A stretch of 8,609 nucleotides of DNA, from assembly GCA_021793115.1 (NCBI GenBank), contig JAJYTJ010000159.1, forward strand, positions 1-8,609, read 5' to 3'. A program made the position numbers and the translations under genes. Of the stretch, positions 17 to 6,406 are shown in pieces; the stretch's first letter is position 1; every line of letters begins with the position of its first letter. This DNA is from Actinomycetes bacterium. GTDB taxonomy: Bacteria; Actinomycetota; Actinomycetes; Actinomycetales; Cellulomonadaceae. The notes under the pieces are model-generated. The model was not told the DNA's origin and did no database searches. It saw only the letters and a program-made list of their open reading frames with translations.

Positions 17-21
17 TCTTG

Positions 22-972
22 ATGTCCTGGATGCGCCCGCTGGGTGCCACGGGCCTGGAGGTGTCGGCGCTGTGCCTCGGCGGCGGACCGCTCGGCAGCA
101 TGCCGCGGCTGTTCGGCGTCGAGACCCCGGCGGAGCGGGGCATCCAGACCGTGCTCGCCGCCCTGGACGGCCCGATCAGGTTCATCGACACCTCCAACGG
201 CTACTCCGACGGCGAGAGCGAGCGGCGCATCGGCGAGGCGTTGCGCCGTGTCGGCGGCCTGCCGGAGGGCGTCGTCGTCGAGACCAAGACCGACCCGCGT
301 GACGGCGACTACTCCGGCGACCGGGTGCGCCGCAGCGTCGCGGAGTCCATGGCCCGCCTGGGCCTCGACCGGCTGCCGTTGGTGCACCTGCACGATCCGG
401 AGTTCCACGACTTCGACGACATCGCCGGTCGGGGCGGCGCGGTCGACGCGCTCGTCGGGCTGCGCGAGGAGGGCGTCGTCGGCGCGATCGGCCTGGCCGG
501 CGGCGACGTGCGCGTCATGGCGCGGTACCTGGCGCTCGGGGTGTTCGACGTGCTGCTGGTCCACAACCGGTGGACCCTGGTGGACCGCAGCGCGGGCGGG
601 CTGGTGGCGGAGGCGCGGCGCCAGGGCATGGGCGTGCTCAACGCGGCGGTGTACGGCGGCGGGATCCTCGCCCACCAGGACGACGAGGGCAGCCCGACGA
701 CCTACGGCTACCGCCCGGCGTCGCCACCGGTGCTCGACGCGGTCCGCGCGATGCGGGCGGTGTGCGCGCGGTACGGCACCGACCTGCCGACCGCCGCGCT
801 GCAGTTCTCGGTGCGCGACGACACCTTCGCCGCGACGGTCGTCGGGATGTCGCGGCCGGAACGGGTCGCCGCCACGGTGGCGGCCGCGCAGGCGCCGCTG
901 CCCGACGACCTGTTCGCGGAGCTGGAGACCCTGCTGCCGGCCGAGGAGCAGTGGCTCGACGCTCCGTTGTGA
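22..972 (+). CDS. Aldo/keto reductase (aldose 1-dehydrogenase-like)
   Basis: A 316-residue cytosolic NAD(P)-dependent oxidoreductase with the complete AKR barrel. Near the N-terminus is RPLGATGLEVSALCLGGGPLG (first strand and cofactor region). The catalytic tetrad is visible: Asp56 and Tyr61 in FIDTSNGYSDGESE, Lys89 in VVETKTD, and His124 in HLHDPE. NRWTLVD (about 182-188) and the C-terminal VVGMSRPERV (about 273-282, coenzyme-binding region) are also typical. Length fits the family. The overall pattern resembles the branch annotated as D-threo-aldose 1-dehydrogenase or L-fucose dehydrogenase, which oxidises a sugar C1 to the lactone, but the substrate cannot be fixed from sequence alone. ATG at 22 is chosen for its strong Shine-Dalgarno sequence. 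It is the only long plus-strand gene here and may be the last gene of an operon entering from the left. Confidence is high for the family and low for the substrate. Confidence 0.93.
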   Translation: MSWMRPLGATGLEVSALCLGGGPLGSMPRLFGVETPAERGIQTVLAALDGPIRFIDTSNGYSDGESERRIGEALRRVGGLPEGVVVETKTDPRDGDYSGDRVRRSVAESMARLGLDRLPLVHLHDPEFHDFDDIAGRGGAVDALVGLREEGVVGAIGLAGGDVRVMARYLALGVFDVLLVHNRWTLVDRSAGGLVAEARRQGMGVLNAAVYGGGILAHQDDEGSPTTYGYRPASPPVLDAVRAMRAVCARYGTDLPTAALQFSVRDDTFAATVVGMSRPERVAATVAAAQAPLPDDLFAELETLLPAEEQWLDAPL

Positions 973-1177: not shown

Positions 1178-1264
1178 CCTGTCAGCGAACCGGCAAACCC
1201 GCTGTGAGGCGGGGACGCAAAGCCACGGGGCCCTCACGGGTCAGCCGGGCTGCCGAAAGACAGG
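1178..1264 (+). ncRNA. Cyclic di-GMP-I (GEMM-I) riboswitch
   Basis: The conserved GEMM-I core is readable throughout. GGCAAACC (1192-1199) leads into a stem CCCGCT (1198-1203) / GGCGGG (1208-1213) capped by GTGA (1204-1207), a GNRA tetraloop. GACGCAAAGCC (1214-1224) is the hallmark junction and tetraloop-receptor segment. ACGGGGCCC follows, then the second hairpin around CAGCCGGGCTGCCGA (1242-1256). Closing stem P1 is CCTGTC (1178-1183) with GACAGG (1259-1264), a perfect 6-bp match. GEMM-I aptamers bind c-di-GMP, and a variant subgroup prefers cGAMP. In my hand alignment the ligand-contacting G is retained (1192), favouring c-di-GMP. The P1 3' strand contains the AGGA used by the open frame at 1272, so ligand binding could mask the ribosome site. 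A second CTGTC at 1170-1174 could act as an alternative P1 strand. Confidence is high for the class and lower for ligand and mechanism. Confidence 0.87.
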
Positions 1265-1271
1265 AACACCG

Positions 1272-1421
1272 ATGGAACAGCGCGGGCAGGCTGCAGGGCC
1301 GTTCAGCTCCCCCACTCCGCACCCGGACCTGCCGGTCGCGCGGTTGCAGGCCTGGGCCCGCCGGGCCGCCGAGCTCGGCGCCGTCACCCTCATCCCGACC
1401 CAGGACGACGCGGCCGCCTGA
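1272..1421 (+). CDS. Riboswitch-controlled small protein, 49 residues, unknown family
   Basis: The ATG is six bases after AGGA (1262-1265), which sits inside the riboswitch P1 3' strand. The frame runs 49 codons to TGA, and about nine codons in ten end in G or C, like the neighbouring real genes; the exceptions (GAA, GCT, GCA, ACT) are all in the first 15 codons. The protein starts MEQRGQAAGPF, has a Pro/Ser-rich segment to about residue 21, then a likely amphipathic helix from PVARLQAWARRAAELGAV (21-38), followed by TLIPTQDDAAA at the C-terminus. There is no signal peptide, membrane span or Cys motif. I do not recognise the family. It is the only frame suitably placed to be the riboswitch target on this strand. 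It ends three bases before the stop codon of the convergent minus-strand gene. It could instead be a leader peptide or a decayed gene end, but start context and codon use favour a real small gene. Confidence 0.6.
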   Translation: MEQRGQAAGPFSSPTPHPDLPVARLQAWARRAAELGAVTLIPTQDDAAA

Positions 1422-1424
1422 GCC

Positions 1425-3944
1425 CTACAGCTCTCCCACCCGTTGCAGGTGGCGCATCGCCACCCAGCCCAGCGGGATCCGCAGCCAGTAGGTGAGGACG
1501 CGGAACAGCACCGCCACGGAGAACGCGACACCTGGGTTGATCCCGGCAACGGTGCCGAGGCCGGCCGCCAGCGCCGCCTCCGTGGTGCCCACCCCACCGG
1601 GTGTCGGCACCAGCGCGCCGAGCGTGGTGCCGGCGAGGTAGACGATCGCCACCTGCACCAGGCTGACGTGCTGGCCCAGGCCGTGCAGCGCCGCGTCGAA
1701 CGCGAGCACGTAGCCGAGCACCGTGACGGCGTTCCCTGCCAGCCCGAGCAGCAGCCGGCCGGGCTGCCCGACGACCTCCACCAGCCGCGGCCAGGTCTGC
1801 TGCAACGTCGGCATGACCCGCGTGGCGACCCAGGTGCGCACCTGCGGCACCAGGAGCGCCGCGGCGAGCGCGAGGACGACGATGCCGATCACCACCAGCA
1901 CGGCCGGTGACAACGGCACCGGCGACTGCTGCTGGGTGCCGGACGTCAGGGTGAGCACCACGAGCAGCAGCACGGTGACGACCATCTGCGCCACCTGGAT
2001 GAGCGCGACGGTGGCCGTGGCCAGCGTCGTGGACACCCCGCGTCGCGTCAGGCTGCGCAGGTTGAGCGCGGCCGGGCCGATGCCGGCGGGCGCGGCGAGC
2101 GCCACGAACGCGGCGGCGGCCTGCACGGTCGTCGCGCGCCACAGGCCCAGCCGGACCGGGGAGAAGGCGACCAGGCTCAGCGCGGCACCGACAAGCGTCA
2201 GCAGACCGAGCGCGTACGCGGTGACGGAGTAGCGCCAGTCGGCCACGCGCAGGGCCAGTCCGATCTGGTGCACGTTGATGGTGGTGAGGATGACGAACGC
2301 CGCGATGATGGTGACGACGATCGTCAGCACGGTGCGGGCCCCGAACCGGACCAGCCGCTGCGGCTCGATGCTGGCCTCCGGCAGGCGGGCGACGATCTCC
2401 TGCCGCAGCTCGGCGAGCACCTCGCGGTGGTGACGCATCAGCTCGCGGGTCTGCCGCGGCAGCGTGATCGTCTGCAGCATCGGGCCGATGGCGGCGACGT
2501 CGTCGTCGGCCAGCGCGTCGGCGACCGACCGGACGGCCCGCGCCGCGCCCACCCGCAGCGCCAGGACGGCGAGCATCTGCGTGATGTCGATGCGGCGCGC
2601 CAGCTCGGACGAGGCGACGTCGCCCGAGTCCCACCCGGTGAGCCACACCCCGTGGTGCGTGGTGCCGGGCCCGACGAGCAGCGTGTCGGCGGTGATCGCG
2701 CGGTGCGCGATGCCGGCGTGGTGGGCGGCGCGCAGCTGCGTCCAGACCTCCGCGAGCAGCTCGTCGGTCAGCTGCTCGTCCGGGATCTGGCTGAGCGGCA
2801 CCGCACCCGCCGGATGCTCCTGGAGCAGCATCATCGAGTCGGCGTTCTCGCTGATCCGCAGCAGTCGCGGGGTGTGGACGCCGGCCGCGGTCGCCGCGTA
2901 GGCCAGCAGGGCGGCCCGCTCGGAGGCCTGCCGCAGCGAGACGATGTTGCGTCCCTCGATGCCGCGCAGCCGCAGGCTGCGCCAGGTGCGGGCCAGCATG
3001 CCGACCACCTGGCGGTCGCCGTCGAGCACCCGCAGGTCGAGGACCTCGTCGTACGTGGTGCGCACCTGGTAGACCCGGGCGTCCGATGAGCGCACCAGCG
3101 CCGCCGAGGCCTCGTCGGGCGCCGGCAGGTTGTGCTCGCGATGCAGCTGCTCGGCGGCGGCGCGGGTGTCGGCGTCCGGCACCCGGACCAGCGACACCGG
3201 GGTGTACCCGGCGCGCCGGATGCCGGCCACGAGCGCGTCGCCGTAGGCGCGTTCCGGAGCCACCCCGGCGAGGTAGCGCACGCCGAGGCCCGCGAGCCGG
3301 CCCAGCGCGAGCGCGAGCGCGACGCCCGGCAGGGACACCTGGGCGGTGATGAGCGTGACGCCGATGGCGGTCCACAGCGCGTTCCAGCTCCACCGCACCG
3401 ACGTGCGGTGCGCGCGCGGCCCGGCCAGCGTGAGCAGCGCGGCGAGCATGGCGACGTACCCGGGCAGCGTGAGGGCAGGGACGTCGAGGTGCGTCGTGGC
3501 ATCGGTCTGGACCACGGACATGGTGGCGACGAGCTCGTGGCTGCCGAAGGTCATCAGCGCCCAGTGGCCGAGCGTCGTCAGCGTGAGGCCGGCGGCGCCT
3601 GCCGCGGACATCTCGAGCAGCAGCCGGCCCTGCCGGCGCACCGCCAGGTCGATGAGCACCGCGAGCGGCACCAGCACGGTGACGAGCGAGACGAGCGCGG
3701 TCACGGGCACGAAGAGGATGCGGCGCAGCAGCGTGGCGAAACCCTGCACGTCCTCGGCGATGCCGCCGGTGGTGTTGTGGGCGTAGGCGGCCAGCACGAC
3801 GACGAGCACGGCGCCGAGGGTCGCGAGCACGACGCCGAGCAGGTCCGACTGGTGGTGGACCCGAGCGGCGGGGATGTCGATGACCTCGACCGCGACCCCT
3901 GGTGCGGACCGGCTGGTCGCGGCTCCCTCCTGCGCCGTGCTCAC
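1425..3944 (-). CDS. LPG-synthase-type membrane protein with internal pseudokinase-like domain
   Basis: An 839-residue integral membrane protein in three parts. Residues about 35-222 hold several hydrophobic helices. About 280-505 is soluble and kinase-like: ERAALLAYAATAAGV resembles the small lobe of lipopolysaccharide/APH-type kinases, HRAITADT (414-421) sits where HRDLKPEN would be, and WDSG (438-441) where DFG would be. The catalytic Asp, Lys and Asn of the loop are replaced by Ala, Thr and Thr, so phosphotransfer is unlikely. About 535-825 is the UPF0104/LPG_synthase_TM domain with roughly eight helices and the characteristic PTPGGVGTTEAAL (780-792). The C-terminal GNAT-like lysyl-transferase domain of true MprF is absent, so a lipid-flipping or lipid-binding role is more plausible than aminoacylation. 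Start: GTG at 3944 is preferred over TTG at 3962 because neither has a Shine-Dalgarno sequence but the GTG has a -10-like hexamer 7 bases upstream. It follows the CPBP gene by 61 bases. Confidence 0.88.
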   Translation of the reverse strand: MSTAQEGAATSRSAPGVAVEVIDIPAARVHHQSDLLGVVLATLGAVLVVVLAAYAHNTTGGIAEDVQGFATLLRRILFVPVTALVSLVTVLVPLAVLIDLAVRRQGRLLLEMSAAGAAGLTLTTLGHWALMTFGSHELVATMSVVQTDATTHLDVPALTLPGYVAMLAALLTLAGPRAHRTSVRWSWNALWTAIGVTLITAQVSLPGVALALALGRLAGLGVRYLAGVAPERAYGDALVAGIRRAGYTPVSLVRVPDADTRAAAEQLHREHNLPAPDEASAALVRSSDARVYQVRTTYDEVLDLRVLDGDRQVVGMLARTWRSLRLRGIEGRNIVSLRQASERAALLAYAATAAGVHTPRLLRISENADSMMLLQEHPAGAVPLSQIPDEQLTDELLAEVWTQLRAAHHAGIAHRAITADTLLVGPGTTHHGVWLTGWDSGDVASSELARRIDITQMLAVLALRVGAARAVRSVADALADDDVAAIGPMLQTITLPRQTRELMRHHREVLAELRQEIVARLPEASIEPQRLVRFGARTVLTIVVTIIAAFVILTTINVHQIGLALRVADWRYSVTAYALGLLTLVGAALSLVAFSPVRLGLWRATTVQAAAAFVALAAPAGIGPAALNLRSLTRRGVSTTLATATVALIQVAQMVVTVLLLVVLTLTSGTQQQSPVPLSPAVLVVIGIVVLALAAALLVPQVRTWVATRVMPTLQQTWPRLVEVVGQPGRLLLGLAGNAVTVLGYVLAFDAALHGLGQHVSLVQVAIVYLAGTTLGALVPTPGGVGTTEAALAAGLGTVAGINPGVAFSVAVLFRVLTYWLRIPLGWVAMRHLQRVGEL

Positions 3945-3951
3945 CTGGGGG

Positions 3952-3957
3952 AGTCTA
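3952..3957 (-). promoter_or_regulatory. -10-like hexamer for a leaderless transcript of the LPG-type gene
   Basis: TAGACT on the minus strand is followed by seven bases (CCCCCAG) and then GTG at 3944. This spacing would put the transcript start at the start codon, as in the common leaderless actinobacterial genes. No TTGACA-like -35 is evident in the GC-rich upstream sequence. No Shine-Dalgarno sequence precedes this GTG or the in-frame TTG at 3962, which would overlap the hexamer. Confidence 0.45.
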
Positions 3958-4005
3958 GGCAACGGGATGGGTCGGGACGGGGGATCCGGCGCCCCCGCGG
4001 CCCGC

Positions 4006-6168: not shown

Positions 6169-6300
6169 GAGCGCCGACCCCGGGAGCGGTGCCCCCCCGG
6201 CGAGGAGCGCCGACCCCGGGAGCGGTGCCCCCCGGCGAGGAGCGCCGATCCCGGGAGCGGTGCCCCCCGGCGAGGAGCGCCGATCCCGGGAGCGGTGCAC
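6169..6300. repeat. 35-bp direct tandem repeat, about 3.7 copies
   Basis: The unit starts GAGCGCCGA and contains CCCGGGAGCGGTGCC and a C-run before GGCGAG. Copies begin at 6169, 6205, 6240 and 6275; the last stops at about 6300. The first copy has one extra C in its C-run (36 bases). Copies 1-2 read GACCCC and copies 3-4 read GATCCC, so the array seems to have grown from two subtypes. Each junction forms a small hairpin CGGCG-AGGAG-CGCCG. A degenerate further copy may lie at about 6134-6168. There are no unique spacers, so it is not a CRISPR array. Confidence 0.92.
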
Positions 6301-6360: not shown

Positions 6361-6362
6361 CT

Positions 6363-6406
6363 GCTGGGACGCGGCGGTGCTGGGACGCGGCGGTGCTGGG
6401 ACGCGA
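6363..6406. repeat. 16-bp tandem repeat, about 2.75 copies
   Basis: GCTGGGACGCGGCGGT starts at 6363 and 6379, with a partial third copy at 6395-6406. The unit is unrelated to the two neighbouring arrays. It lies 51 bases beyond the end of the copper ATPase gene and may be part of its 3' untranslated region. Confidence 0.88.

Follow-up and report, generated by a model that had tools for sequence, protein, structure and literature searches.

What does a cyclic di-GMP riboswitch do in front of a gene of only 49 codons? The question is raised by a stretch of 8,609 nucleotides (hereafter, the window) from a member of the Cellulomonadaceae, where a c-di-GMP-I (GEMM-I) aptamer lies directly upstream of a small open frame (Table 1). 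The riboswitch class is known, but its output gene here is an undescribed small protein. The locus holds a genuine aptamer and a frame under coding selection, and the two are linked in every strong hit in Cellulomonas and its sister genera. From the comparisons below, we consider that the small gene probably encodes a regulatory protein with a riboswitch of its own, which would act most likely at the level of translation, and that this protein may belong to the BldC/WhiG circuit. With respect to the preliminary description of the locus, made from the letters of the DNA, our analysis adds the conservation across the genus, a regulon shared with bldC and a sigma factor gene, and a resemblance to BldC.

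Table 1. Coordinates of the features at the riboswitch locus, in positions of the window.
Feature	Position	Strand	Basis
Aldo/keto reductase, upstream neighbour	19-972	+	Pfam PF00248, E 1.7e-37
P1 5' strand, CCTGTC	1178-1183	+	Sequence; predicted pairing with 1259-1264
c-di-GMP-I riboswitch aptamer (RF01051)	1182-1257	+	cmscan, 64.4 bits, E 3.5e-11
P1 3' strand, GACAGG	1259-1264	+	Sequence; minimum-energy folds
Putative ribosome-binding site AGGA, overlapping P1	1262-1265	+	Sequence; maximum pairing of a site base with the 5' strand, P 0.98
49-codon gene, undescribed small-protein family, motif R-x3-W-x3-A ... [VI]P-x-Q	1272-1421	+	Homologues, alignments, pN/pS, upstream riboswitch, AlphaFold helix
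LPG_synthase_TM / flippase-like membrane protein, convergent neighbour	1425-3962	-	Pfam PF03706, E 1.5e-27

The preliminary description had read a GEMM-I aptamer with a GNRA loop, and the covariance model bears this out. The RF01051 match found by cmscan is full-length (1-87 of 87) and scores well above the gathering score of 35, and RF01051 is the sole Rfam family at or above its gathering score in the whole window. According to the covariance match, the conserved core elements of the class are present, and the sequence of the aptamer shows GACGCAAAGCC as well as a GUGA tetraloop, which is of the GNRA type. In the numbering of the class, the ligand-contacting residues are G20, A47 and C92. 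The window has all the bases to which we assign these numbers, namely the first G of GGCAAACC, the first A that follows GACGC and, in the CC that precedes GAA, the first C.

The overall sequence is also similar to that of c-di-GMP-I-GGC (RF03167), and a variant riboswitch with another ligand is one of the rival readings. The orthologue from Cellulomonas sp. 73-92 reaches 68.6 bits with the RF03167 model, above its gathering score of 59. Nevertheless, the window aptamer, searched alone, stays under that threshold with 57.4 bits, and it carries an A where the RF03167 consensus has a G in GACGCGAAGCC, that is, at the variable position of GACGC[A/G]AAGC, so that it does not qualify as a member of the variant family. 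All parsed leaders of the two sets described below share the A (147 of 147 in the genus set and 83 of 83 in the second set), in a count for which the search pattern fixed the neighbouring bases and which leaves 5 and 7 further loci, respectively, unparsed. We therefore regard a different ligand as highly improbable.

The small frame had been described as starting seven bases after GACAGG and as showing a GC bias at third codon positions. Both statements are correct: the ATG occupies positions 1272-1274 and the TGA 1419-1421, and the GC content by codon position is 0.80/0.61/0.92. We compared 29 non-overlapping pairs of same-length orthologues, taken from 76 distinct genes and aligned without gaps, and obtained a pN/pS of 0.355 in frame versus 1.32 and 2.10 in the other two frames, with 139, 105 and 319 changes at codon positions 1, 2 and 3. 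Between the window gene and its counterpart in Cellulomonas sp. 73-92 (locus L001), pN/pS is 0.41. Among 5.8 billion proteins searched, 14 matched, including the window's own; over 98-100% of the length, the other 13 show 71-86% identity. With a wider alignment as query, a search that admits only lengths close to that of the query gave 79 matches of 38-92 residues; in the names listed, these are either left without a name or described as hypothetical or uncharacterized. Because relatives exist and selection acts at the codon level, we conclude that the frame is a real gene and not a chance occurrence.

The protein belongs to no family that we could recognize. The window protein has no significant match in Pfam, NCBIfam or the PDB, and Pfam gives no significant match over a 73-member alignment either: five families touch one member each, the best at E 0.011, below the cut-off. 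In a 78-row alignment, M1, R24, W28, A32 and P42 do not vary, and Q44 hardly does; when the version of the protein found in sister genera is added, M1, A32 and P42 stay invariant, and W28 and Q44 are kept in at least 90%. The C-terminus is AA in 58 of the 78 small proteins of the genus set and AS in 11. AlphaFold predicts a single helix over residues 22-37 (mean pLDDT 75, pTM 0.37), and Foldseek finds no match for this model in the PDB. We found no description of the small gene, of its family or of a riboswitch before bldC among titles and the beginnings of abstracts, in a collection that lies mostly outside subscription journals; the family appears to be undescribed in the literature.

Is the riboswitch really dedicated to this gene? 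A profile search of 221 genomes of the family gave 90 strong hits (E <= 2.4e-8) in 86 genomes, 77 of them among the 81 genomes of the genus, and an RF01051 aptamer stands directly upstream on the same strand in 90 out of 90. Among the weak hits, the riboswitch is upstream in 2 of 19 and absent in 17. In 40 relatives, a wider profile found 28 strong hits (E <= 1.8e-7), all of them preceded by a riboswitch as matched by eye, and a weak 29th (E 6e-4) in a genome without riboswitch; nine of the carrier genomes also belong to the 86. In an order-wide sample of 396 genomes, 18 have a match: 16 are known carriers and two are weak, near E 7e-4, so the strong hits are confined to known carrier genomes. 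A scan of public genomes with an alignment of close relatives had returned one locus, probably because its patterns were narrow, and is superseded by the whole-genome searches. Judging from these, the family is so far confined to riboswitch-preceded sites in Cellulomonas and its closest relatives. The idea of a riboswitch devoted to a small, soluble-looking and unrecognized protein is upheld by these counts.

RF01051 itself is found in 79 of the 81 genus genomes, mostly in two copies. Four genus genomes are devoid of the small gene: G005 and G064 have no riboswitch match, while in G035 and G065 the single riboswitch among the matches listed precedes bldC.

The genes around the riboswitch bear on what the small frame does. 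In the closest named relative, Cellulomonas sp. 73-92, the order is the same as in the window: aldo/keto reductase, riboswitch, small gene and convergent flippase. Among the 78 small-gene loci listed in the genus set, the aldo/keto reductase orthologue is upstream in 11, and the flippase orthologue lies downstream on the opposite strand in 72, at 0.2-2.3 kb. In sister genera, we examined 19 loci that carry the second version of the protein and found no flippase orthologue within flanks of 1.5-3 kb, which indicates that the riboswitch and the small gene are independent of this neighbour.

Alternatively, translation of the small frame could serve to control a neighbouring gene, in the manner of a leader peptide or an upstream frame, and its product would have no function of its own. 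Two genomes (G049 and G030) would suit this reading, since a copy of the small gene lies there directly before a sigma factor gene, and in two other genomes a WhiG-type sigma factor carries a somewhat similar N-terminus in one continuous frame. In the window, however, the next gene is convergent rather than codirectional, its stop codon starting three bases after the small gene, and the frequent convergent orthologue downstream tells the same story, although at distances of up to 2.3 kb intervening genes are possible in some loci. Furthermore, the conserved residues extend to the C-terminus, and the in-frame pN/pS refers to the whole frame. We find a mere leader peptide improbable, and a small protein with its own function remains our preferred reading.

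We then consider how the riboswitch would act. The AGGA site overlaps the 3' strand of P1 in the sequence, as had been described, and from this overlap a simple on-off logic had been proposed, in which the closed P1 hides the ribosome site. This mechanism is plausible for the window copy and only partly supported across the leaders. In the ensemble of the window, the ribosome-site base that is most paired with the 5' strand is so at P 0.98. P1 is present in the minimum-energy fold of 1174-1274 and absent from that of 1174-1300, and in folds starting at 1172 it is present at five out of five 3' ends, set from 0 to 60 bases past the ATG. No rightward intrinsic-terminator-like site was detected on the plus strand in 970-1500, so a translational switch fits best; a search of the same interval for a sigma-70-type promoter pattern was also negative.

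Among leaders with a recognisable site, no more than 51 of 91 before the small gene and 39 of 76 before bldC have this site paired with the 5' strand at a probability above 0.5, and in 25 and 23 of them, respectively, the probability is below 0.1; the 103 small-gene leaders examined had been chosen with a W..PxQ/P pattern, and at least two (L248 and L268) are probably not members. The 3' strand of P1 shifts by one or two columns between alignment rows, and for this reason we used pairing probabilities after swapping the outer strands as a control. Of the non-redundant small-gene leaders, 28 of 48 pair at P > 0.5, compared with a mean of 42% and a maximum of 48% in ten swaps. For bldC, 20 of 42 pair versus a swapped mean of 44% (maximum 52%), with no clear excess. 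According to these figures, the window copy is likely to be a switch that high c-di-GMP turns OFF; the same logic is weakly supported for the small-gene leaders as a class and not supported for the bldC leaders as a class.

The genus set comprises at least 152 loci, including the window and L001, 147 with the strict core pattern and five without it. Contrary to the case that would have spoken against the preliminary description, in which homologous riboswitches are consistently followed by a different gene and never by this frame, the small gene follows 78 of the 147 leaders listed. The others stand before bldC (61, with one place entered twice, as L003 and L124), a frameshifted bldC (one), a WhiG/FliA-type sigma gene (two) and genes for probably secreted proteins (five, two of which were run against Pfam). 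One of the riboswitch-preceded BldC proteins reaches 101 bits, where the BldC cut-off is 77, and the two sigma proteins (L092 and L170, in G014 and G028), whose genes are directly behind the riboswitch, score 253.1 and 262.2 bits against a cut-off of 189.6. The second set, with 83 leaders, comes for the most part from sister genera and includes a few genus loci; its targets are the small gene in 30 (L268 being doubtful), bldC in 23, long genes in 18, among them that of an EAL-domain protein, and others in 12. Besides the small gene, leaders related to the RF01051 aptamer of the window thus precede bldC, WhiG-type sigma genes, an EAL gene and genes for probably secreted proteins.

Several observations on these targets deserve a record of their own. 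bldC is found behind a c-di-GMP-I riboswitch both in Cellulomonas (e.g. L009 and L104) and in sister genera and other loci of the second set (e.g. L190 and L223), sometimes as several paralogues, and at L261 (G096) two riboswitch-bldC units lie in tandem, about 430 bases apart. The sigma proteins of L092 and L170 have a variable N-terminus that bears the [VI]PxQ motif. In G049 and G030 (L105 and L106), the riboswitch and the small-gene copy are directly before a second, FliA-like sigma gene, whose product has FVPTQ in its C-terminal region. At L207 and L235 the riboswitch precedes the gene of an EAL-domain protein (Pfam EAL shown for L207), which might feed back on c-di-GMP. In the second set, L200, L217, L226, L237, L238 and L243 have frames of 30-43 residues of another kind behind their riboswitches.

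The FliA/WhiG family model is over its cut-off in 76 of the 81 genus genomes. We call these matches WhiG-type, by our own reading, because lower-scoring ones adjoin flagellin genes, as in G049. A WhiG-type match is found in 75 of the 77 genus genomes with the small gene versus 1 of the 4 without it (Fisher p 0.00046). The sigma gene is absent from five genomes and the small gene from four, and it is on these, some of which are probably incomplete assemblies (that of G064 has 1.9 Mb), that the association rests. A motif may connect both proteins: GVIPx[QP] is found upstream of sigma region 2 in 22 of 22 readable Cellulomonas WhiG-type loci out of 30 fetched, 19 of them with the strict [VI]PxQ, in a stretch that may extend beyond the start codon. 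In 17 sister and riboswitch-free genomes, 16 of them readable, the WhiG-type N-termini are mixed and often show VPxP for VPxQ, so the motif link to WhiG is either specific to Cellulomonas or accidental.

A flagellar role was also considered for the small gene and finds no support. Flagellin is absent from 21 of the 81 genus genomes and the small gene is present in all 21, while the four genomes that lack the small gene all have flagellin. The distribution of the small gene thus does not track that of flagellin, which makes an exclusively flagellar function unlikely.

The small protein also resembles BldC. The sister version contains ..VPPQVLARWAA.., similar to VDPKTVTRWA in the recognition helix of BldC, and [VI]PxQ tails are present in both proteins. 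Besides this helix and tail, the small proteins share with the BldC family (NF033787; PDB 6ama) the kind of riboswitch upstream and a small size; they differ in having no wing and no domain match. In the last 25 residues, [VIL]PxQ occurs in 62 of 67 BldC proteins and in 9 of 694 long frames, six of these nine being riboswitch targets. The slightly wider [VILA]PxQ is found in the tail of 91 of 93 small proteins, a count inflated because the 93 had been selected with the W..PxQ/P pattern.

In view of these likenesses, the small protein could be a mini-version of BldC without a wing, or could mimic the recognition helix and tail of BldC, and in this way disturb the head-to-tail oligomers of BldC or compete for a BldC partner. 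Aligned with BldC by hhalign, the sister version scores 19.6, a value matched by 1 of 150 column shuffles, and the full set 15.1, matched by 2 of 150, but the hhalign probabilities are 3.6-15.7%. With hmmsearch, the 67 BldC proteins average 6.6 bits against the full-set profile (0.34 when shuffled; the BldC median is reached by 4 of 1340 shuffles) and 7.2 bits against the sister profile (-0.43 when shuffled; 2 of 1340). The excess is weaker for a narrower genus profile, A2 (3.8 versus 0.1 bits; 22 of 1340), and the best shuffle beats the best BldC for all three profiles. At E up to 10, the PDB search retrieved just two sequences, one of them BldC 6ama, whose E of 3.9 is not significant. A study of Streptomyces BldC places Phe21, Val23 and Trp31 of one subunit opposite Leu11, Ile40, Thr42, Leu43 and Gly44 of the next (PMC5859096). 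Our alignment identifies Trp31 with the tryptophan in the BldC helix to which the small protein is similar, and its place in the oligomer interface makes interference with BldC oligomers a conceivable, unproven idea. Against membership of the BldC family itself, the 49 residues show no NF033787 or other NCBIfam match, no significant Pfam match, no wing and no RTLGGHRR. The BldC comparison was moreover picked after the resemblance had been noticed. In summary, the resemblance exceeds that of most shuffled controls, which does not prove homology, and we hold a BldC relative or mimic to be unlikely.

The explanation we favor is that of a dedicated regulatory protein under riboswitch control. At high c-di-GMP, the ligand would stabilise the aptamer together with P1, whose 3' strand holds the ribosome site, and translation would be off; as c-di-GMP falls, the small protein would be made. 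The same signal would reach BldC, which stands behind a riboswitch of this type. More tentatively, the small protein may be a linear-motif peptide, made of one helix with R and W followed by a [VI]PxQ tail, that would act by binding a putative partner in the BldC/WhiG circuit, and not as an enzyme or through a DNA-binding fold of its own. Some of the observations above weigh against this explanation: the pairing of P1 with the ribosome site is not universal, P1 is lost in one of the window folds, the promoter search of 970-1500 was negative, and the protein model has a low pTM and no Foldseek match.

A more specific version, which we put forward as unlikely, would be a riboswitch-gated peptide whose docking elements resemble both those of BldC (the recognition-helix tryptophan and the [VI]PxQ tail) and the motif near the N-terminus of the Cellulomonas WhiG-type sigma factor. 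Released as c-di-GMP falls, it would tune BldC oligomers or a shared partner, with RNA sensors driving a regulator, a peptide modulator and, in some species, a sigma factor.

The locus provides an unannotated family of small proteins with a predicted signal (c-di-GMP) and a likely circuit. In Cellulomonas, bldC and the gene of the small peptide seem to have riboswitches, as does a WhiG-type sigma gene in two genomes. Cellulomonas is not known to sporulate, and the role of BldC and WhiG-type regulators outside sporulation becomes testable here, in bacteria that can be grown. More generally, tracing riboswitch hits can reveal small genes that domain libraries miss.

In Streptomyces, c-di-GMP controls development through the binding proteins BldD and RsiG-WhiG, and acts on WhiG and other developmental regulators (PMC8325347, whose main text contains neither Cellulomonas nor riboswitch). 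In that circuit c-di-GMP binds proteins, whereas here the riboswitch stands on bldC and, in two genomes, on a WhiG-type gene, with control predicted from sequence.

Finally, the window contains two tandem arrays elsewhere, both between a SPFH/band-7 gene and a P-type ATPase gene: one at 6169-6298, with 3.7 copies of a GC-rich unit of 35 bases (97% matches), and the other at 6362-6405, with 2.8 copies of a 16-base unit.
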